A stretch of DNA of 64,000 nt from a virus. The position numbers and the translations under genes were made by a program. The DNA lies in IMG/VR virus record IMGVR_UViG_3300044678_002717, positions 1-64,000 of that record. One strand, written 5' to 3'. Within the stretch, counting starts at the first letter, position 1; the number at the start of each line of letters is the position of its first letter. The notes beneath the pieces were generated by a model. It searched no databases. It was not told the DNA's origin and saw only the letters and a list, made by a program, of their open reading frames with translations. This document shows positions 10,721 to 48,444 of this stretch, one piece after another.

Positions 10721-12517
10721 TTAAGCAATTGTATCTAATAAGAATTCGCTTGGACCTACAGTTGGTAAGCCTTGAACTAATACTTTACCATAGAACCTGT
10801 TATTAACAACTTTCTTCGCATAACGAGTCATGATACCCATTACAGGTTTGAAGTCAGCAGGGTTAATGGTTTTAGGCATAAGCATCAACGGAACATATGG
10901 AGCGTAGATGTAACCTGCGTGGAAGATTGAATCTCCTTTGTGTCCTACAAGAACAACACCTGCCGGAGCATAAGCATCAACATATACTGTGTATCTGTTA
11001 GCTACATTACCAACTTTTTCAATACCTAAAGAGAACTTAGTTTCTTCAGCAGCAGCGTTAGAAGCGTGGAAATATTCAAGGTCATTGAAAAGAGCAGCGA
11101 TTTCAGGAGAACATACAACCCAATTAGCACCACCACGAAGAGTATACTTCATGATACGAGCAGAGATTTGGTTAATCTTGGTAATCAAATCTTGGTTGTA
11201 ATCCTTACGAGTAATACCAAGCGCACCTGTAGAAGTGTTTAATCTTCTGTCATATGCACTATAGTCAAAATATTCAACATGTGAAGCAGATTTACGAAGG
11301 TCACGAAGGATTTCACGGTCAATTTCACCTGATACTACTTCAGAAAGAAGAGCAGTTAATTCAGCCTCAACATCAATTGAGTGGAATGCGTTAACATCTT
11401 GCTGAAGTTCAGGAGTGAAGGTAGCACCTAACATTCTCTTTTCAACAGAAACGTCAATAAAGTCAAAAGTGAAAGTTACTTGAGGAATGTTAGCATCTTC
11501 TTCCATAGAAGAATATGTTCTATAATTACCTGTAAAAGCAACTAGACCTGTGGCAGCAGTAAGCGGAGAGGCGGTGGTATAAAATGCATTTGCATCAACA
11601 CCATAAACACCTATGTTAGATGGAGAATCAAATAAAAGTTCAAGTAAAACATAACTATTACGAGTTGTTACACCTGCTGAAGTAGTTCTACCAACTATTT
11701 GCTGACCATAAACTTGCATTGGCATTCTAAATGGAATAGACTGACCTGCTGTAATTTTATAAGTAGAGCCAAGAGGTGAATCTAAATCTCTATTAGCAGT
11801 AACTTTAAGACCCATTAAGAATGATTCAGTATCAATTGGCGCACCAATTGGACCTTGTAATTTACCTTGGTTAGTAATTGAAAAACCTGTTAATCTAACA
11901 AGAATTCTTTGAGTAATACCTGCTGCACCTGAAATAGCAGAACCTGAAATAATCTGAAGTGCAGTATTAGCGGTAACGATTGTACCTTTAGTTCTATCAA
12001 ACAAACCACCATCATCATCAAGATTACTTCCACTATTGTAGAAAGAATCATAAAGAGATGTAGTTTGGAACTGAGTACCTCCTGTTTTTATGTTAGAAGA
12101 ATTGTAAGCGTTAGCAGCATTACTGTAAACACCATCAAATGGAGTATGAGCAGCACCAACAGAGTTATTAGTTCTAACAGAAATTTTAGGGTTAATGAAA
12201 TACAAACGACCAATTGGCATGTTCATAGCCTGAACTGATACGATTTCATTTGCAAGCAATTTTTGGAAAACACGTCTGATGATTGGAAACGCAACTGTCT
12301 CAAAAGAACCTGAAGATGTAGCATCTGTAGATTCGTTAATGAGATAAGAAGCTTGGTTCTCATACAATTGTGCAATGTTTTCTGCCATGTGACCTTCAAG
12401 GCCATCAAGCAATCCGAATTGATTCCACTTTTCGGTAATCAATTCACGTTGTTCACGAAGTTGCTTATACTCCTGACCAACTTTTCCTGAATTTAGGATT
12501 TCGGTAATTCCGTACAT
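10721..12517 (-). CDS. Major capsid protein, gp23-like, with cleavable propeptide
   Basis: 598 residues. The N-terminal 62 residues are helical (KQLREQRELITEKWNQFG, MAENIAQLYENQ) and end in SYLINE before STDATSSG. A leucine/isoleucine-X-glutamate site at about residue 62 matches the T4 prohead-protease specificity and the length of the gp23 propeptide (65). The rest has HK97-fold-like features: QELTALLSEVVSGEID in the spine-helix region, GGANWVVCSPEIAALFNDLE, and a C-terminal GYIYAPYVPLMLMPKTINPA followed by MTRYAKK typical of gp23. Codon use has more G+C than neighbouring genes, consistent with high expression. A TTACTATTTA late box precedes the start. Confidence 0.9.
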   Translation of the reverse strand: MYGITEILNSGKVGQEYKQLREQRELITEKWNQFGLLDGLEGHMAENIAQLYENQASYLINESTDATSSGSFETVAFPIIRRVFQKLLANEIVSVQAMNMPIGRLYFINPKISVRTNNSVGAAHTPFDGVYSNAANAYNSSNIKTGGTQFQTTSLYDSFYNSGSNLDDDGGLFDRTKGTIVTANTALQIISGSAISGAAGITQRILVRLTGFSITNQGKLQGPIGAPIDTESFLMGLKVTANRDLDSPLGSTYKITAGQSIPFRMPMQVYGQQIVGRTTSAGVTTRNSYVLLELLFDSPSNIGVYGVDANAFYTTASPLTAATGLVAFTGNYRTYSSMEEDANIPQVTFTFDFIDVSVEKRMLGATFTPELQQDVNAFHSIDVEAELTALLSEVVSGEIDREILRDLRKSASHVEYFDYSAYDRRLNTSTGALGITRKDYNQDLITKINQISARIMKYTLRGGANWVVCSPEIAALFNDLEYFHASNAAAEETKFSLGIEKVGNVANRYTVYVDAYAPAGVVLVGHKGDSIFHAGYIYAPYVPLMLMPKTINPADFKPVMGIMTRYAKKVVNNRFYGKVLVQGLPTVGPSEFLLDTIA

Positions 12518-12570: not shown

Positions 12571-14217
12571 TTATTTCTTACCAAAATTATAGTTAAGTAA
12601 TTGTTTAAACCTATTAGATTCATCATTTTCATTGATTAAGTTCTTTTCTCTAACAATTGCATTGTCAGTTCTATGAACTTTACCAACTTTGTTTTGTACT
12701 GATTCATTTAACATTGAACCATCTTTAACTATTTGCCTTTTTGCAAACTCATTTGTTAATGAGATATAGGTTTCTTTAATTTGTTCTTTAGTTTGTGCAT
12801 TTGCAAAACGATAAACAATTTCAGTTTTTTCGTTTTCTCTTAAAGGATTCTCAAGTAAAAACTTATTTACAAATCCTGCCTTTAATGCACTAATTGTTAC
12901 ATCGTATACTTTATTTTCAAGTAATTTAATTTTATTTACAAAACCTTCTTGAAGTTTTGCATTTTGTTTTTCAAGTTCTTTAACTTTTTCGTGAAGAGTA
13001 GACATTTCTTTCATTTGGTATTCACCTTCTTCTAAACCTCTAACTCTTTTAGGCATTGCTTTTTGATTTTGTAAAGAAATTTCAGTTGACATACTCTCTT
13101 CCACTTGGTCTTCATCTTTTTCAGAATAAAGCATTTCATCAATTACAGCATCTTCTTCCATGTATTTTGATTCTTCAACACCATCATCTTCAAGTATTGA
13201 TTCCATTTCCATCAATTCCTCCATTGTCATTTCGCTAAATGCTTCTTCAAGTTCATCAGTATGATAGTTATGTATATCACCTTTAAAATGTCTGTGTTTT
13301 TCTTGAGTACGATAAGCAGCACCTTGTTCACTAGAAGGTACTTCTTCATCTAAATCCATTTCAGAAAGCATTTCGTTAATTTCTTCATCGGTTAATTGAT
13401 AACCTTCTTCAGGTATATCAATTTCATACATGATTTCTTCATCTATTTCTTCATCACCATAATCATCACCACCTTTACGGACATCAGCATATGGTTCATA
13501 TTCTTTTTTAGGTTCATCAAAATATTGTTTTTCACGACTAGTTGGTTTATATTCTTTAGAACCTTTCATTCTCTGTGCAAATTCGTTATCAAATTTTTTT
13601 AATATCGGATTTTCTTCATCTTCAGGATAATTTTCTTCCATATAATCCTCTTCATAGTAATCTTCTTCCATATTATAATCTTCTTTAACAACAAATGAAT
13701 CTGACTCATCCATATTATAATATGCTTCAACTAATTTATTAAAACTAACATCTCTTAAATCTTTAAGAACTTCTTTTTTATTATTTTTCATATTTTTTGT
13801 ATTTCTAAATTTTGATTCTGCTATAACTTTTTCATCAACTTTTACTGACATGAAATCTTTTTCATCACCTTCTTCATCATCGAAGGTAATGTCTTCATCA
13901 TCTTCTTCCTCTTTATCTTCTTCATCACCTTCTTCCTCATCCTCATCATCTTCTTCCTCATCATCTTTAGAAGGTTCTTCTAAATCTTCACCTTCATCAT
14001 CATCTTCTTTTTTATCAGATGGTTTTTCTTCTTTGTCATCAGTTTTTTCTTCTTCAGCACCTTCTGAAATTAATTTTTCAAATAATGCAGCAGATTTTTT
14101 TTCAAGTAAGTCAGCACTTTCATTAATCAATTGCTCTTTGGCAAGTTCCAAAGATTCATTTTTAATATTTTCTAGTTCTTGCAAACTATCTTGTAATAAA
14201 GATTTTTTATTTTCCAT
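12571..14217 (-). CDS. Acidic prohead core/scaffold protein
   Basis: 548 residues, extremely acidic. Residues about 55-125 are almost entirely D, E and K, and later segments repeat EEDYYEEDYMEENY-type runs. The N-terminus is a helix with (L/I)XE sites (EQLINE, EKLISE) that the prohead protease could cut. It lies between the capsid and protease genes, the usual position of T4-like core proteins. Residues about 395-440 form a coiled coil (MKEMSTLHEKVKELEKQNAK). A scaffold that is degraded on maturation is the best reading. The late box upstream is of the ACTAATTA variant. Confidence 0.75.
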   Translation of the reverse strand: MENKKSLLQDSLQELENIKNESLELAKEQLINESADLLEKKSAALFEKLISEGAEEEKTDDKEEKPSDKKEDDDEGEDLEEPSKDDEEEDDEDEEEGDEEDKEEEDDEDITFDDEEGDEKDFMSVKVDEKVIAESKFRNTKNMKNNKKEVLKDLRDVSFNKLVEAYYNMDESDSFVVKEDYNMEEDYYEEDYMEENYPEDEENPILKKFDNEFAQRMKGSKEYKPTSREKQYFDEPKKEYEPYADVRKGGDDYGDEEIDEEIMYEIDIPEEGYQLTDEEINEMLSEMDLDEEVPSSEQGAAYRTQEKHRHFKGDIHNYHTDELEEAFSEMTMEELMEMESILEDDGVEESKYMEEDAVIDEMLYSEKDEDQVEESMSTEISLQNQKAMPKRVRGLEEGEYQMKEMSTLHEKVKELEKQNAKLQEGFVNKIKLLENKVYDVTISALKAGFVNKFLLENPLRENEKTEIVYRFANAQTKEQIKETYISLTNEFAKRQIVKDGSMLNESVQNKVGKVHRTDNAIVREKNLINENDESNRFKQLLNYNFGKK

Positions 14218-14252: not shown

Positions 14253-14954
14253 TTAACCACCAATTATTTTTCTTATTGAATCATCATATTTTTTTACATT
14301 ATTGTTTATTTCTTCAACAGATTCTCTTAATGGTTCATCTTTTGTTTCTAAAAATAAATAAGCATTAGGTGTTGATGGTGTAGCAACAAGGTCAAAACAA
14401 ATTAATTCAAAATCATCTTGAACAATATTTTTTCCACCTACTTTTTTAACACTACCTAATCCTCTTGAAGAAATACCAAGTTTAAGATTTCTTTGTAAAT
14501 ACAATGCAATTTTATCACCGATTGTCCAACCAAGACCTTCTCTTAAAAATGAATCACTAACGATAATATCAAGAGTTCCATAAACTGCATTACCTGACCA
14601 CCAAGTTTTTGCAATTCTATGTGATATATTTTGTAAAGAAATTGTAACTGATTCGGGATGGTCTGCTTCATTAAGTGCTGCATTGTCGTTAATTAATTTT
14701 TGATATTCTTCTATTTGTCTTTCAAGAATTAGTCTTGGATAAACTCTACCGTTTCTATTTAAAACATCAGCCTCTTGAAGTTTACAATCAATATAGAAAT
14801 GACCATCAAAATCATCTTTTTTTGCTCTGATATTTAAATCTTCAAAAACTTTTTTATTATGGATTGTTAAATCATTACTAATGATACCTGCATCAGTTTC
14901 TACTAATAAACCATATCCTTCCTGCCCTTCTTTTAGTAGTTGTATATTAGTCAT
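14253..14954 (-). CDS. Prohead core protease, gp21-like (peptidase family U9)
   Basis: 233 residues, close to T4 gp21 (212). Family pattern visible: LNRNGRVYP (64-73), ALNEADHPES with the likely catalytic His99, ISHRIAKTWW (110-119), GDKIALYLQRNLKLGISSRG with the likely nucleophile Ser162 or Ser163, and LVATPSTPNAYL (189-200). It should cleave head proteins after (L/I)XE. Its start overlaps the stop of the upstream gene (TAATG). It is the probable processing enzyme for the recurrent N-terminal peptide found on several proteins in this window. Confidence 0.88.
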   Translation of the reverse strand: MTNIQLLKEGQEGYGLLVETDAGIISNDLTIHNKKVFEDLNIRAKKDDFDGHFYIDCKLQEADVLNRNGRVYPRLILERQIEEYQKLINDNAALNEADHPESVTISLQNISHRIAKTWWSGNAVYGTLDIIVSDSFLREGLGWTIGDKIALYLQRNLKLGISSRGLGSVKKVGGKNIVQDDFELICFDLVATPSTPNAYLFLETKDEPLRESVEEINNNVKKYDDSIRKIIGG

Positions 14955-38380: not shown

Positions 38381-39241
38381 TTAAAATCCACCTTGGCTTC
38401 TTTTTTTACCCATAGGGTCGGTGTATATATCTTTTTCTCTATAAGGTTTATCTGACATAAAAGAAGATTCATTAATAACTGCAAAATTAATAGAAATATA
38501 ATCCATTCCATTTACATTAAAATATTCATCATAACCCCAATTAGAATAATTTTCTTCGGGATGTTCTGTTAATGCATAATTATTTGGATTTGCTGAAAAA
38601 AACTTTTCAATCCTATTTTTTATTTCAGGCACATTTAATCTTCTTAAAAACATAGCAACATTATAAGAATCATTTTTACCACCCCTAGTGTTTAATTTAT
38701 CACTTTTTTCTATTCTACCTAATAAATGAACTTTAAAAAATAAATGTTTCCTACCCTTTGTATTATCAGATGTAGAAGTGTAAATATGTCTAAATTCAGG
38801 ACTCACTTCTACTGATTTAACATCAAGACCTTGTAAATAATTTTCCAATCTTTTTGCTAACTCTATATCAGAATCTGTTACATCAATTTCACCTTTAGGA
38901 GAAAACATGCTATAACCTTTTTTTACAATAACTTCTTCTCTAATTATCCTTTTAACTAACCCTCTTAATTGAGATTCTCCAATAGTTGTCGTACCCATTT
39001 TTACTTTATCAGGTTGTAATAACATTGCATGAATAGTTGGTTTATCTGAATTTTTTATATCTCTATTTAAATCCATATTGTTTAATATTTGTACTGCTGA
39101 GAAATTATTTTTTATATTTTGAATTTCTTGTGGGTTAAATCCTTTCTTGGCTAATTCTGTATATTTAATTTCTACATTTTCTCTAATCATTTTTCTAACC
39201 AATCCTTTCAATTGGGATTCAGTAATTCTTACTTTTTTCAT
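38381..39241 (-). CDS. Internal-head-protein candidate with two targeting peptides
   Basis: 286 residues. It begins MKKVRITESQLKGLV and residues 19-21 are I-R-E, the shared 21-residue amphipathic peptide described in the findings. A second, internal copy (TTIGESQLRGLVKRIIREE, about residues 87-105) suggests that two modules are fused. The C-terminal domain (KHLFFKVHLLGRIEKSDKL; NYSNWGYDEYFNVNGMDYIS) is unassigned. The late box AACTATTTA is 18 nt or less upstream. Processing by the prohead protease into two mature products is inferred. Confidence 0.6.
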   Translation of the reverse strand: MKKVRITESQLKGLVRKMIRENVEIKYTELAKKGFNPQEIQNIKNNFSAVQILNNMDLNRDIKNSDKPTIHAMLLQPDKVKMGTTTIGESQLRGLVKRIIREEVIVKKGYSMFSPKGEIDVTDSDIELAKRLENYLQGLDVKSVEVSPEFRHIYTSTSDNTKGRKHLFFKVHLLGRIEKSDKLNTRGGKNDSYNVAMFLRRLNVPEIKNRIEKFFSANPNNYALTEHPEENYSNWGYDEYFNVNGMDYISINFAVINESSFMSDKPYREKDIYTDPMGKKRSQGGF

Positions 39242-39272
39242 ATAAAATTCTTATTTATTATAAATAGTTATT
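39216..39272. repeat. 57-nt direct repeat, copy 1 (targeting-peptide start + late promoter)
   Basis: This stretch is identical, base for base as read, to 39537-39593. It spans the first nine codons of the targeting peptide, the start codon and the ACTATTTA promoter, so promoter and peptide were duplicated together. Confidence 0.8.
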
Positions 39273-39562
39273 TAGTAACTTTTTTGTATTATTGGGTATA
39301 TTTGATTCCCCTTACCATCAGAAACAATAATAGTATCATTAGGATAATCTTTTTTTACATCCTCATAATAGCGAAAAACATTATTAGGATTTAGTGTCGT
39401 AAAACTTTTTTTACTTTCTTTTGCTGTGATAATATAAGGAGCAGGGTTACTCTTAACTAAATCTTCAATAGTTCTTTTAATTACATCCATAGTTAATTCT
39501 TCTTTAATTAATTTTTTAACCATTCCTCTTAATTGAGATTCAGTAATTCTTACTTTTTTCAT
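39272..39562 (-). CDS. Internal-head-protein candidate (96 aa)
   Basis: 96 residues. The N-terminal 21 residues are the shared peptide (MKKVRITESQLRGMV ... LIKE), with a leucine-isoleucine-K-E cleavage site at 19-21. The mature remainder of 75 residues (MDVIKRTIEDLVKSNPAPYI; YPNDTIIVSDGKGNQIYPII) would be a small packaged protein. It sits next to another gene with the same peptide, and both have identical promoters. Confidence 0.6.
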   Translation of the reverse strand: MKKVRITESQLRGMVKKLIKEELTMDVIKRTIEDLVKSNPAPYIITAKESKKSFTTLNPNNVFRYYEDVKKDYPNDTIIVSDGKGNQIYPIIQKSY

Positions 39563-39593
39563 ATAAAATTCTTATTTATTATAAATAGTTATT
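39537..39593. repeat. 57-nt direct repeat, copy 2
   Basis: Identical to 39216-39272. It contains the start of the 39272-39562 gene and its late-type box. Confidence 0.8.
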
Positions 39594-41103: not shown

Positions 41104-41538
41104 TTAGAAGTTAAACCCTTTTCTAAGTTGTCTTGAGTACCTTCTGTCTGTTGTTAAATATTTCCACAATTCTTCATTACTCATTCCCATAATAGGACTA
41201 GATGCACCACTCATTCTAGCATTTGTCCTTTGGTACTCATTTCGTCCTTTATTAGCAAGCCAAGAATTAATAATTTGTTTACCATCTTTACTTAATTGAT
41301 AAAGTTCACCATCTTGTGCAAAATCACTATCATTAATATCGGTTGAATAAGTCCAATAATCAGGGCTATACACAGAATCATCATCTTCATCTGAATAATA
41401 AGCATCAGTTCTACCTATATATGCTCTTTCAGTATCACTAAAATAATCTTCATTTATTAAGTTTTTTTTAGTTTCTTCTTTAATCATTTTTCTAATCAAT
41501 CCTTTCAATTGGGATTCTGTAATTCTTACTTTTCTCAT
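41104..41538 (-). CDS. Internal-head-protein candidate (144 aa)
   Basis: The start is ATG 41536-41538, where the shared peptide begins (MRKVRITESQLKGLI, ending M-I-K-E at residue 21). A longer frame exists, but it would run through the promoter. A second site follows (KKNLINE). The mature part is acidic, then polar (YFSDTERAYIGRTDAYYSDE; RTNARMSGASSPIMGMSNEE). The ACTATTTA box is 15-20 nt upstream, back to back with the TATATTTG promoter of the plus-strand gene. Confidence 0.6.
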   Translation of the reverse strand: MRKVRITESQLKGLIRKMIKEETKKNLINEDYFSDTERAYIGRTDAYYSDEDDDSVYSPDYWTYSTDINDSDFAQDGELYQLSKDGKQIINSWLANKGRNEYQRTNARMSGASSPIMGMSNEELWKYLTTDRRYSRQLRKGFNF

Positions 41539-41570
41539 ATAAATATTTATTTTTATATAAATAGTTATCA

Positions 41571-41578
41571 TATATTTG
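41571..41578 (+). promoter_or_regulatory. Leaderless-type TATATTTG promoter
   Basis: TATATTTG ends 4 nt before the ATG at 41583, like three other genes in the window. Confidence 0.65.
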
Positions 41579-41582
41579 CTTT

Positions 41583-42266
41583 ATGAAAATTTTTGCAATC
41601 TCAGATACTCATGGAAGGCATGAGCAAGTTCAAATACCTGAAGGTACTGATATGCTTATTCATGCAGGTGATTTTTCAAATACAAAACTTCCTGCAATGA
41701 ACCATAATGAAGTTAATTTATTTTTAATTTGGTTAGAAAAACAACCTGTTAAATATAAAGTCATTATTGCAGGTAATCATGATACTTCTATTGAAAGTAG
41801 ATTCATTACTAAAAAAGATTTTAAAAATAGAGGTATTATTTATCTTGAACATGAATCAATTGAGATTGAAGGAATTAAAATATTTGGCTCTCCATATACT
41901 CCTGAATTTCATAATTGGGCATTTAACCGTACAAGGGCTAAACTTGGAAAAATTTGGGATTCAATACCTGATGATACTGACATCTTAATTACTCACGGAC
42001 CTCCTAAAAGTATTTTAGATTCTGTTGAAAGAGGTAGAAACAATCATGAACATGTAGGTTGTTCCGCTTTACTTAAAAAAGTATTAAAAGTAAAACCAAA
42101 ATACATGATATTTGGTCATATTCATGACAATGGTGATAATTTAAACAATGGTATGTTTAAATTTAATGAATATAGAACAATCTTTGCGAATGTATCTTGC
42201 GTTAGAGATGGTAATAACTTACCATTTGTACACAATGGATATAGTTTTGATTATCCTCCTGCTTGA
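41583..42266 (+). CDS. Calcineurin-like metallophosphoesterase
   Basis: 227 residues. ISDTHGRH (6-13), HAGDFS (27-32), AGNHDT (63-68), LITHGPP and MIFGHIHDNG supply the dimetal ligands. A single-domain enzyme of this type could act on nucleotides or other phosphodiesters; the substrate is not predictable. It is expressed from a TATATTTG promoter 4 nt upstream, so it is not in the late set. Its end overlaps the convergent gene by 16 nt. Confidence 0.78.
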   Translation: MKIFAISDTHGRHEQVQIPEGTDMLIHAGDFSNTKLPAMNHNEVNLFLIWLEKQPVKYKVIIAGNHDTSIESRFITKKDFKNRGIIYLEHESIEIEGIKIFGSPYTPEFHNWAFNRTRAKLGKIWDSIPDDTDILITHGPPKSILDSVERGRNNHEHVGCSALLKKVLKVKPKYMIFGHIHDNGDNLNNGMFKFNEYRTIFANVSCVRDGNNLPFVHNGYSFDYPPA

Positions 42267-42628
42267 GTTTGAATATTTCTAAAACCTAAAGCGACATTTC
42301 TACCAGCAGTAGCAGTATTATTTTCTTCAACACTTGTTTTACTTGTTATAAAATTTATTATAGCAGTTAAATCATTTGCAGTTTTAATATTTTTTAGTTT
42401 AGTAATTAAAGGTGTATTTCCATTAGGTCCATTAATAATAGTTATAACACTTTGAGCAGCAGGAGAAACTTTTGGTTGTTGAGTTTGTTGTTGCCCTGTT
42501 TGAGGTTGTTGTCCTGTTTCAGACTCAAATCCACTAGTACCAACAGGTGTACTTCTAATTGGTTGTTCCATTAACATTTTACGAACCATTGCCCTTAATT
42601 GAGATTCTGTAATTAAAACTTTTTTCAT
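42251..42628 (-). CDS. Nested internal-head-protein candidate (125 aa)
   Basis: ATG 42626-42628 lies in frame inside the longer gene and is preceded by its own AACTATTTACAATAAA box. It starts with the shared peptide (MKKVLITESQLRAMV ... MLME at 21). The mature region is Q/T/P-rich (GTSGFESETGQQPQTGQQQT), then a small domain (VITIINGPNGNTPLITKLKN). This shorter product is probably a genuine separate gene. Confidence 0.55.
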   Translation of the reverse strand: MKKVLITESQLRAMVRKMLMEQPIRSTPVGTSGFESETGQQPQTGQQQTQQPKVSPAAQSVITIINGPNGNTPLITKLKNIKTANDLTAIINFITSKTSVEENNTATAGRNVALGFRNIQTQAGG

Positions 42629-43267
42629 CTTTTTTTTATTGTAAATAGTTGCTTTATTAAAATGTTCACTAATATTTTTACTCATATTAAATTTTTTCAC
42701 TTTATTAAGTGAAGCTAATATTTCTTCTTTATATGGTAAAACTAAAACATTATATACAAAAGCAATACTACCAACTATTTTTAATAATAATGATATATAA
42801 TCCGCAATATCTGTAAAAGAACTTGAAATAGTATTAATCATTCCATCGGCAACTAATTTATTTAACCATTCTGTTAATTTTGGTGTATTAGAATATATAC
42901 TAAGTATAAAATTAAAAATACATGCAACTGCTGATAATTTTAAAAGATTTTTAATATTAGCACTATTATTTATTTTACTTATAAAATTATCAATAAATTT
43001 TCCAAAACCTATAGTTTGTAATGTTGCCTTAACAGTTTGTGAAATACGTTTAATATTCGCTATTAATAAATCTAAATATTTGGTTAATAAAAAATTATTC
43101 TCTGCTTTTAATAACATATTAAAAAAAGAAACCAATTCCTTAATATTAAATATTTTATCAAAAAAACTAATATTATCTTCCTCATTTAATTGATTTAATT
43201 CCAATCTTGATAATAATACATTGCTACTTTCAATAAATAATTTTCTATGTTGTAACTCAGTTAACAT
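42251..43267 (-). CDS. Composite protein with internal targeting-peptide gene
   Basis: 338 residues from ATG 43265-43267, preceded by TTACTATTTA. An upstream extension would cross the promoter and both strands of the tRNA-Leu region, so it is rejected. The first about 210 residues are helical with hydrophobic segments (LLKLSAVACIFNFILSIYSN; YISLLLKIVGSIAFVYNVLV). The frame continues without a stop through a second ACTATTTA promoter and into MKKVLITESQLRAMV. The full-length product would therefore carry the targeting peptide internally (about residue 214). Confidence 0.5.
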   Translation of the reverse strand: MLTELQHRKLFIESSNVLLSRLELNQLNEEDNISFFDKIFNIKELVSFFNMLLKAENNFLLTKYLDLLIANIKRISQTVKATLQTIGFGKFIDNFISKINNSANIKNLLKLSAVACIFNFILSIYSNTPKLTEWLNKLVADGMINTISSSFTDIADYISLLLKIVGSIAFVYNVLVLPYKEEILASLNKVKKFNMSKNISEHFNKATIYNKKKMKKVLITESQLRAMVRKMLMEQPIRSTPVGTSGFESETGQQPQTGQQQTQQPKVSPAAQSVITIINGPNGNTPLITKLKNIKTANDLTAIINFITSKTSVEENNTATAGRNVALGFRNIQTQAGG

Positions 43268-43304
43268 TTTTTTATTGTAAATAGTAAATTTTAAAAAAAA
43301 GTCA

Positions 43305-43312
43305 TATATTTG
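43305..43312 (+). promoter_or_regulatory. TATATTTG promoter of the tRNA pair
   Basis: TATATTTG lies 17 nt before tRNA-Leu. It is the same -7 element used by thyX and the thioredoxin gene. Confidence 0.6.
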
Positions 43313-43329
43313 AATTGTCAAAACAATAT

Positions 43330-43413
43330 GTCGGGATGTTGGAATTGGTAGACAAGATGGACTTAAAATCCATTGGCAGCAATGCCGTGAGGGTTCGATT
43401 CCCTCTCCTGATA
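43330..43413 (+). tRNA. tRNA-Leu (anticodon UAA)
   Basis: 7-bp acceptor stem (GTCGGGA with TCCTGAT, two G-U pairs), anticodon stem ATGGA/TCCAT with loop CTTAAAA (anticodon TAA at 43364-43366), a long class II variable arm (GGC...GCC), T-arm GAGGG/CCCTC with TTCGATT, and discriminator A. CCA is not encoded. It decodes UUA, the expected preferred leucine codon in this AT-rich genome. Confidence 0.9.
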
Positions 43414-43420
43414 CATAACT

Positions 43421-43435
43421 CATTGATTATCAATG
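43421..43435 (+). other. Hairpin between the two tRNAs
   Basis: CATTGA-TTA-TCAATG forms a perfect 6-bp hairpin in the tRNA spacer. It may guide processing of the dicistronic precursor. Confidence 0.35.
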
Positions 43436-44064: not shown

Positions 44065-44695
44065 TATATGTTTCCTATATTGCTTGTTTGATAAAAAAGA
44101 TTGTAGAATAAGATATATTGGTGTATCCGTGCAACCTGAACAAAGATTTAAAAATCATCAATATGAAAGTAAAAATCCTTCTACAAGTAATTTGGGAAAA
44201 TCTAAATGGTTAAAAACTGTAAAAGAACTTTCTTACAAAATTTTATTTTCAGGAACTGAAAAAGAATGTTATCAGAAAGAAATTGAATTAATTTTTAAAT
44301 ATAAAAAGAAAAAAAATCTTGTAAATAGTACGGTTGGAGGTGATAAACCACCTAAATTAAATGAATTAGACCCAATACATTATAATAAGACAATTTCTAA
44401 AATTTCAGAAAAAGCAAAAAATAGAAAAGTTTCTGATATAACTAAACAAAAAATGTCTGAGACTCATAAAAAAATTCCTCCTATTTGGTTAGAATCAAAA
44501 GGTTGTAAAAACGGAAGAGCCTATTCTGTAAATCAATATGATTTAAATGGTAATTTTGTCAAAAAATGGGATTGTGCTAAAGATGCAATCAATGAATTAA
44601 AATTAAATAAAACCGCAATTACTGATTGTTTAAAAGGAAGACAAAAAACAGCAGGAGGTTTTATATGGAAAAAATATACCCCTTACAAAGCTTAA
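44057..44695 (+). CDS. GIY-YIG endonuclease with NUMOD repeats (free-standing homing type)
   Basis: 212 residues from ATG 44057, which overlaps the end of the M15 gene. A longer frame is open but would begin deep inside that gene. The GIY-YIG module reads LYCLFDKK...IRYIGVSVQPEQRFKNH with R30 and a catalytic Glu near residue 78 (YQKEIELIF). KQKMSETHKK is a NUMOD3-like helix, and YSVNQYDLNGNFVKKWDCAK through GGFIWKKY is a NUMOD1-like DNA-binding domain. It probably cuts unoccupied sites in related phages to spread itself. Confidence 0.78.
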   Translation: MDNICFLYCLFDKKDCRIRYIGVSVQPEQRFKNHQYESKNPSTSNLGKSKWLKTVKELSYKILFSGTEKECYQKEIELIFKYKKKKNLVNSTVGGDKPPKLNELDPIHYNKTISKISEKAKNRKVSDITKQKMSETHKKIPPIWLESKGCKNGRAYSVNQYDLNGNFVKKWDCAKDAINELKLNKTAITDCLKGRQKTAGGFIWKKYTPYKA

Positions 44696-45153
44696 TTTTT
44701 CTTTTTCTTTTTATCTGTTATTGGACCACCAACAACCCATGCATCACAGGTTCTTTTTGCAGCACATTTAAATTTTAAAAATCTGCAATAACCTAATTGA
44801 CCTGCATCAATTACATCATGTGGGTCTTCAGAATCTTCATCATCACCAATACCTTTAGCAATACAATCTAAAGTTTTTTTGGTAATATCAAATGCTGCAC
44901 AATTACCACAAATAGATTCCTTTGCTTCATTGATTGAATCAAGTTTCCACATCTCTGCTTTTTCTTTCCAAAACTTTGTATTTGGTCGATTAGGATTTAA
45001 TGGTCCATATCCTTTACTTTCAATAGCTTCTTGTCTATTTTCAAGATTTAAATCAATATCTTGTGTTGCAGGTGGACATTTAGAACTTTCTTCATTCATT
45101 TGAACAAAATTTTTAATATCTTTGTATTGATTTTCGCTAATAAAAATTTTCAT
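44692..45153 (-). CDS. Cysteine-rich protein (possible metal/Fe-S binding)
   Basis: 153 residues. Cysteines are grouped as CGNCAAFD...LDC...GYCRFLKFKCAAKRTCDAWV (residues about 82-140), suggesting a metal or Fe-S site. The pattern 'kCaA.RTC..W..GGP' seems familiar from T4-like marine phages, but I cannot name a family. The N-terminus (MKIFISENQYKDIKNFVQMN) is a diverged version of the targeting peptide and ends in M-N-E. A TTACTATTTA late box lies upstream. It overlaps the convergent endonuclease gene by 4 nt. Confidence 0.55.
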   Translation of the reverse strand: MKIFISENQYKDIKNFVQMNEESSKCPPATQDIDLNLENRQEAIESKGYGPLNPNRPNTKFWKEKAEMWKLDSINEAKESICGNCAAFDITKKTLDCIAKGIGDDEDSEDPHDVIDAGQLGYCRFLKFKCAAKRTCDAWVVGGPITDKKKKKN

Positions 45154-47643: not shown

Positions 47644-48444
47644 ATGAAAAAGTTAAGAATCACAGAATCTCAATTAAAAACAATTGTAAAGGGCATTATA
47701 AAGGAAGAAAGAAAAAAACAAATAATTAAAGAAGGAATTCTTTCAGGAGGGTTAGATAAAATAAAAAATGCAATATTGGATTCACCATTGTTTGATAAAC
47801 TAATCAATACAATTGTGGCTAACATGACTCCTAAAAACATTCAAATGTTTAAGATGATATTTAATCTACAGGAGAGTGTAGGTGGTCCATCTCTTGAATC
47901 GATTATGACAATGGTTCATAAAAAGAATCCTGATAAGAATCTTACAGCAGCTATGAATGAAGAGCAAGCTGCAATAGATAAAGAATCACTTGAAGGCAAA
48001 GTTGTAAATTTAGTAAGAAATGTAACAGGTTTAAATCTATTAGCATTAGGAGGTTTACCATTAGGATTATTAATCAATTCAATTATTAATCTTGGCCCAT
48101 ATGCATTTGGTAGTTTTTTAGGACCATTGATTAGCTTGATAGCATCATTGATTATTCATGGTATATCTAGAAAATTAATTGGTGTTAGTAGTGATGAAGG
48201 AATTATTGGCGAAGAATCTCAAATTATGGAAATGAGTAGAGATGATGTCAACTTAAAAGCAATACTTGCAAAATATGATAGTTCTAGTGAAACAACACAA
48301 AAGGCAATAGCTAATATGATACTTGGTAGTTTTGATAGATTAAACTTTAATCCAAAAATGGCTAGAGTTAAAATCTATAAAGAGTTAAGAGATATGGATT
48401 ATCAGGAAATATCAGGTATAAGAAAAAGATTAAATATTAGATAG
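47644..48444 (+). CDS. Internal-head-protein candidate with membrane-active segment
   Basis: 266 residues. It begins MKKLRITESQLKTIV and ends the shared peptide with I-I-K-E at 21. A second site (KKQIIKE before GIL) follows ten residues later. Residues about 125-175 are strongly hydrophobic (LLALGGLPLGLLINSIINLG; SFLGPLISLIASLIIHG). The rest is helical. An AACTAATTA box lies upstream. If packaged and ejected, it could insert into the host membrane. Inference only. Confidence 0.6.
   Translation: MKKLRITESQLKTIVKGIIKEERKKQIIKEGILSGGLDKIKNAILDSPLFDKLINTIVANMTPKNIQMFKMIFNLQESVGGPSLESIMTMVHKKNPDKNLTAAMNEEQAAIDKESLEGKVVNLVRNVTGLNLLALGGLPLGLLINSIINLGPYAFGSFLGPLISLIASLIIHGISRKLIGVSSDEGIIGEESQIMEMSRDDVNLKAILAKYDSSSETTQKAIANMILGSFDRLNFNPKMARVKIYKELRDMDYQEISGIRKRLNIR

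Follow-up and report, generated by a model that had tools for sequence, protein, structure and literature searches.

The tagged genes of the window

The window analyzed here comprises 64 kb out of a 73.6-kb IMG/VR virus record. Five of its genes have in common a 21-residue N-terminal peptide, hereafter called the tag, and a sixth copy is internal to the product of gene 38381-39241. Gene calls throughout are simple open reading frames (ORFs). The tags, the genes that carry them and one diverged leader are listed here.

39179..39241, minus strand: tag 1, MKKVRITESQLKGLVRKMIRE, N-terminus of gene 38381-39241
38381..39241, minus strand: tagged gene, 286 aa, made up of tag, cargo A, internal tag and cargo C
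38936..39001, minus strand: internal second tag, KMGTTTIGESQLRGLVKRIIRE, in the 38381-39241 product between its two cargo modules, boundary from comparison with the relative G026
39500..39562, minus strand: tag 2, MKKVRITESQLRGMVKKLIKE, N-terminus of gene 39272..39562
39272..39562, minus strand: tagged gene, 96 aa, cargo relative in G026 fused after an internal tag
41476..41538, minus strand: tag 3, MRKVRITESQLKGLIRKMIKE, at an inner ATG (41538) of ORF 41104-41571
41104..41538, minus strand: tagged gene, 144 aa, residues 1-142 84.5% identical to a tagged G026 protein
42566..42628, minus strand: tag 4, MKKVLITESQLRAMVRKMLME, at an inner ATG (42628), with the motif ACTATTTACAATAAA immediately upstream
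42251..42628, minus strand: tagged gene, 125 aa from the inner start, G026 counterpart matching residues 1-34 only
45091..45153, minus strand: MKIFISENQYKDIKNFVQMNE, a short leader of gene 44692-45153 that resembles the tag but has diverged, with similar leaders in relatives
47644..47706, plus strand: tag 5, MKKLRITESQLKTIVKGIIKE, N-terminus of gene 47644..48444
47644..48444, plus strand: tagged gene, 266 aa, G026 match limited to the first 34 residues

The grouping of these five genes by their N-termini had been proposed in an earlier note on this DNA, and it was confirmed both by sequence and by a position-specific scoring matrix (PSSM) built from other phages only. The window copies scored 24.5-30.9 bits in four cases, and 9.2 and 8.5 in the last two, compared with a top score of -11.3 among 20 shuffles of the window ORFs; no reversed ORF sequence scored above 10 bits. 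These scores, together with the absence of any match in IMG/VR for the reversed form of the search pattern described below, confirm that the window peptide is real and not a product of chance. The closing I/L-X-E motif is present at residues 19-21 in all five N-terminal copies, and both the internal copy in the 38381 product and the diverged copy in the 44692 gene proved to be real. The interval previously given for tag 1 (39182-39241) was one codon short.

Translation starts were revised in part. The 5' end of ORF 42251-43423 (minus strand) overlaps a tRNA-Leu gene at 43330-43414 (plus strand), the inner start at 42628 has its own promoter-like motif, and the related G026 gene begins at the same place; the inner ATG proposed earlier is thus well supported as the true start of the 42251 gene. 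The tag of the 41104 ORF likewise lies at an inner ATG, which the earlier note did not mention. Behind the false 5' end of ORF 42251-43423 stands a leader-like sequence, MLTELQHRKLFIES, with the ACTATTTACAATAAA motif. This sequence continues in the reading frame of the tagged gene; two cassettes thus seem to have been fused, with the promoter motif translated as TIYNKK.

Past the window in the same record (L177), two regions on the minus strand, 71460-71837 and 72218-72850, have diverged leaders (MKYLITEKQLKTLRKYMKSFINE and MKLILTEKQLKWLKAFLLLKE), and short MK.IITESQ-type leaders are found in many relatives. The product of 47644..48444 contains a long hydrophobic stretch that is probably a membrane segment; long hydrophobic, probably membrane-spanning stretches also occur in tagged cargos of L058, L017, L023 and L102.

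Sequence, boundary and selection

The earlier reading covered a local variant, MKKVRITESQLKGLVRKMIKE, of a family that mostly reads MKKIIRLTESDLTRIVKRVIxE. A short basic start is followed by T-E-S-[DQE]-L, which opens an amphipathic stretch, and the tag ends in [V/I]-I-X-E. By the 22-residue numbering, there is almost no variation at T8, E9, L12 and the final Glu, the hydrophobic positions are L12, I15, V16, V19 and I20, and the basic ones are 14, 17 and 18. From known capping patterns, T-E-S-[DEQ] flanked by hydrophobic residues looks like a helix start. AlphaFold models placed a tag helix at residues 8-23 and 7-25, with low confidence there, and modeling the 38381 product by itself gave a poor result (pLDDT 43.6).

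The C-terminal boundary of the tag is sharp. Among 206 N-termini collected without requiring the residue, Glu occupies the last tag position in 184, and the position two before it is hydrophobic (I, L, V, M or F) in 95%; this set includes largely the same loci as the main pattern set. Conservation is gone from the first column after the Glu. No significant match over the tag was found in Pfam or PHROGs for the window's tagged proteins, and among 108 proteins scanned against these collections no family occurred in more than two. Alignment to a known unrelated domain, which would have refuted the original proposal, was therefore not observed in either collection.

A repeated N-terminus could also arise as a by-product of promoter-region recombination driven by DNA homology, with no function at the protein level, and approximately 58 bp of promoter plus tag DNA are indeed identical between the neighboring genes 39241 and 39562. 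Tags across phages, however, differ largely synonymously, with synonymous changes making up 47% of codon differences between tags versus 3% directly behind the tag, from which we infer that selection on the tag acts at the protein level. The protein pattern is also kept over at least 119 IMG/VR stretches. We regard recombination alone as scarcely credible.

Distribution of the tag

IMG/VR was searched with a degenerate DNA pattern that fixes the T, the E and the last Glu. At least 155 matches were returned in at least 119 stretches, and all matches listed are open in frame. In 129 of the 155 matches listed, the nearest Met lies exactly six residues ahead of the L of LTES. A previous, too strict pattern had recovered only two stretches. 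The check in related phages advised in the earlier note thus reveals a family far larger than the local variant. Large contigs carry 4-15 copies of the tag each.

Bacterial and archaeal genomes (84,980; 257 Gb) yielded seven matches. Some are plain tags located on contigs of MAGs, and three of those contigs are labeled Bacteroidota or a Bacteroidota family. A tblastn search of 50,697 phage records with the bare 22-mer returned nothing; short queries are weak, and absence from isolates is unproven. For two whole window proteins no homologues were found in IMG/VR, and for the 38381 product none were found in isolates. The tag was not found in the T4-like phages immuto and Mel-JY01 or in two huge phages, and it is not used by all T4-like phages. 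The tagged phages look like one broad group of T4-like phages. Their hosts are likely Bacteroidota, given the MAG labels, the Flavobacterium host of one of the nearest isolates and similar published phages. Freshwater Bacteroidetes phages that encode bS21, with genomes of up to 331 kb, resemble the tagged contigs in their clustering of terminase, portal, prohead protease and capsid genes (PMC9723584). These may be relatives, and their identity with the tagged contigs is not established.

Association with head genes

The window also encodes the components expected of a T4-type head.

14253..14954, minus strand: S77 (T4 gp21-type) prohead protease, the proposed cutter (Pfam PF03420, E 1.9e-24; PHROG head maturation protease)
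10721..12517, minus strand: Gp23-type major capsid protein (Pfam PF07068, E 4.1e-68)
12332..12343, minus strand: LINE|S at residues 59-62, where the capsid protein is predicted to be cleaved (from LINE|[AS] in relatives and comparison with T4 gp23)
12571..14217, minus strand: scaffold-like acidic protein with LINE and LISE motifs (from sequence and its position between the protease and capsid genes)

The scaffold-like protein had no Pfam or PHROG match. LINE|[AS] is found in the capsid proteins of 14 tagged relatives, and the counterpart in T4 gp23 is SFLTE|AE, cut after LTE. By sequence, the predicted capsid site is of the same [L/V]-I-X-E kind as the end of the tag, as the earlier note had recognized when it placed a gp21-like protease and a capsid protein with such a site in this window.

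S77 was detected in 21 of 39 tagged contigs searched, including all seven of at least 280 kb, and Gp23 in all six tagged contigs of that size searched for it. Among the first 27 tagged contigs, Gp23 scored above the cut-off in exactly the 14 with S77. In 16 control contigs chosen by an unrelated 15-mer, S77 was present in three and the tag in none. IMG/VR contigs are mostly fragments, and we read the 18 tagged contigs without S77 as fragments of large contractile-tailed phages; this fits with the lack of any HK97-type capsid found in them and with the tail sheath present in five. The co-occurrence of tag and S77 is in part a matter of shared ancestry.

Membrane or nucleic acid binding is known for basic amphipathic helices. 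The tag might accordingly direct proteins to a site in the infected cell, such as the membrane, the DNA or a phage compartment, or have a regulatory role, and carry no head signal at all; that some cargos are hydrophobic in part, such as the 47644 product, would be in keeping with this. Such a function leaves unexplained the terminal Glu, the link to S77 and Gp23, and the exchange with T4-type leaders described below, and we consider it improbable.

A late-promoter-like motif

The motif TATTTA[TA] stands ahead of 108 of 147 tagged genes versus 356 of 1088 ORFs without a tag. Its usual distance upstream of the ATG is 20-25 nt, at about 22 nt for the start codon of the tag. Two copies in the window precede adjacent tags.

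39563..39588, minus strand: late-promoter-like motif, CTATTTATAATAAATAA, before tag 2
39242..39267, minus strand: late-promoter-like motif, same as before tag 2, before tag 1

In G010 and G026 the motif also precedes terminase, tail sheath and tail tube genes (read from their N-termini), and in the Flavobacterium isolate immuto it precedes the annotated portal gene. Among large contigs, the capsid gene has its own copy in only 2 of 14, one of them G026, so the link to virion genes rests on the other genes. The motif marks virion genes generally, tail genes included, and does not single out the head interior. Identification with the T4 TATAAATA late promoter was rejected: the orientation is wrong, the sense strand reading TATTTATA, and we therefore use the term late-promoter-like only.

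Cargo diversity and module exchange

What follows the tag differs from protein to protein, as had been claimed for the window: clustering of 140 cargos gave 99 groups, of which 76 have a single member, and tagged partners in G026 share only residues 1-34 in two cases. Known domains occur in few cargos (LysM, PG_binding_1, OmpA-like, UPF0227 and annexin), and most cargos have none.

The core genes of the window phage and G026 are conserved, with 97% identity in the terminase and 89% in both the protease and the portal protein. Two pairs of tagged genes match over their first 34 residues only. In a third case, G026 joins two modules through an internal tag, and the relative of the second module is a separate tagged gene in the window. 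With core genes conserved and tagged partners swapped or re-fused at tags, the unit of exchange is, as inferred from these alignments, the tag plus its cargo. A PDB fold search with the exchanged cargo domain gave no match.

The PHROG 7595 cargo

One cargo family, PHROG 7595 (labeled HVA1 in some records), was found with the tag, with other leaders and without a leader. In 69 of 80 IMG/VR homologues, a phi-X-E motif ([LIVMF]-X-E) lies right before the conserved A-E-Y-Q-G-R, and the parts upstream are unrelated and range from 14 to 928 residues. In phage C48C1, which is T4-like and encodes S77, the leader of this cargo is MKKFKQYIDE and the junction reads LTE|AEYQG; S77 is also present in HTVC008M. 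Kolga and CRP-902 gave no S77 match; their versions of the protein begin MAKYQG and MATYKG, respectively, which is to say at the junction. In an AlphaFold model of a tagged member, a tag helix (low confidence) is joined by a disordered linker to an ordered domain, which starts immediately beyond the predicted cleavage point. The position of the HVA1 domain directly after phi-X-E suggests that it may be released by the head protease. As a caveat, PHROG 7595 homologues mostly carry other leaders, and 8 of 14 large contigs tested for S77 had none. A second cargo (YMFFSNL) has another leader in a huge phage.

The tag could instead be an uncut assembly or docking helix for another part of the virion (tail, baseplate or neck) or for a late complex. 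The late-promoter-like motif is found before tail genes too, and cargos with peptidoglycan-binding, LysM and OmpA-like domains could have a place in tails or in lysis. Cleavage is nevertheless the better fit for a final Glu that is fixed and beyond which conservation ends, for the matching site in the capsid protein, and for cargo homologues that begin at the phi-X-E junction in phages lacking S77. Cutting after Glu is, moreover, a known habit of such proteases (PMC5694885). An uncut helix appears unlikely on this evidence but retains some support.

In L375-L454, many phage proteins that are unrelated to each other were seen to have PHROG 7595 / HVA1 as their C-terminal module, which follows phi-X-E directly in almost every case. 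A small module, EKCWKGYTQKGMKTMFGKRYPNC, often follows [LI]-[TN]-E (L025, L035, L036, L057, L095, L177, L180 and L378) and sometimes stands in one chain with HVA1; chains of several modules around it are possible.

Comparison with known head-targeting signals

In T4, internal proteins reach the core by means of a capsid-targeting sequence (CTS) that is 10-19 residues long; in the case of IPIII the first 10 residues are enough, and the residues for targeting and processing are separable (PMC3012670, PMC5694885, PMC9026906). T-even internal proteins are diverse, and the CTS alone is conserved among them (PMC3012670, PMC9026906). Like the gp21-cut CTSs of IPI, IPII, IPIII and Alt, the tag is N-terminal and short, ends in phi-X-E and is borne by otherwise unrelated cargo; like T4, the tagged phages have an S77 protease and Gp23. 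Unlike the T4 CTS, the tag is 21-23 residues long, marks 4-15 genes per large record and lacks experimental proof. The T4 leaders of gp24 (MAKINELLRE), Alt (MELITELFDE) and gp22 (MLKEQLIAE) are shorter and do not have the TES[DQE]L...KR pattern.

The propeptides of the giant-phage proteins SPN3US gp53/gp54 and phiKZ gp93 have Glu cleavage motifs, have been compared to T4 CTSs, and include the same 15-residue N-terminus on two diverged paralogues (PMC5694885). They differ from the tag in being limited to two related paralogues and in having another sequence and A-X-E or S-X-E specificity. In P1, the N-terminal 30 residues of DarB bring a foreign protein into the capsid, but unlike for the tag, no consensus common to the Dar proteins was found (PMC9024508). 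The main text of the bS21 study mentions no motif (PMC9723584), and we found no description of the motif or of similar tags in the open-licence literature; one may exist elsewhere. The kind of signal is known. For this particular family of leaders we found no account, nor for how long they are, how many unrelated proteins bear them or the part they appear to play as a platform for exchange.

A model for the tag

Taken together, the data make it probable that the peptide is a cleavable capsid-targeting propeptide, serving as an interchangeable address label, with packaging and cleavage both inferred. This is in essence the modular signal first proposed from the window, and it remains the best reading of the sequence evidence. 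It draws on S77 and Gp23 in the same genomes, the matching capsid site, the sharp Glu boundary and protein-level selection, and further on the common late-promoter-like motif, module exchange at tags and the cargo that, in two S77-negative phages, starts at the junction. For tagged phages, neither virion proteomics nor cleavage data were found.

As we propose it, tagged proteins would be made late in infection, and the tag helix would dock onto the assembling prohead core, so that formation of the Gp23 shell encloses the cargo. The S77 protease would then cut after the final Glu of the tag, just as proposed for LINE|S of the capsid protein; the mature cargo would remain with the DNA and be injected at the next infection. 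Internal tags would come from the joining of two units, each of tag plus cargo, and would likewise be cut, and near-identical promoter-plus-tag DNA would let neighboring genes recombine and swap cargo.

More broadly, large T4-like Bacteroidota phages may use one standard cleavable leader and its promoter as an open cargo-loading code, under which many unrelated and rapidly swapped proteins are packaged, some of them in chains of several modules that are separated at internal tags or phi-X-E junctions, and by which the injected set could be read from sequence. We hold this wider proposal to be only somewhat better than an even bet.

Without isolates and mass spectrometry, it is usually not known which proteins travel in a phage head and are the first to be injected. 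A recognizable leader would allow the head proteins of a large uncultivated phage group to be listed with nothing but sequence, and many candidate early-acting proteins, with roles in anti-defense or cell-wall entry, would follow. For protein delivery, the tag would also be a packaging signal ready for use.

A second N-terminal pattern, [LI][ST]EEEK.RI..LH-like, was observed on several genes of G010 (L187-L203), at 44761, 66050, 126638 and 314821. These genes also have the TATTTATA motif, and the pattern is perhaps another leader family.
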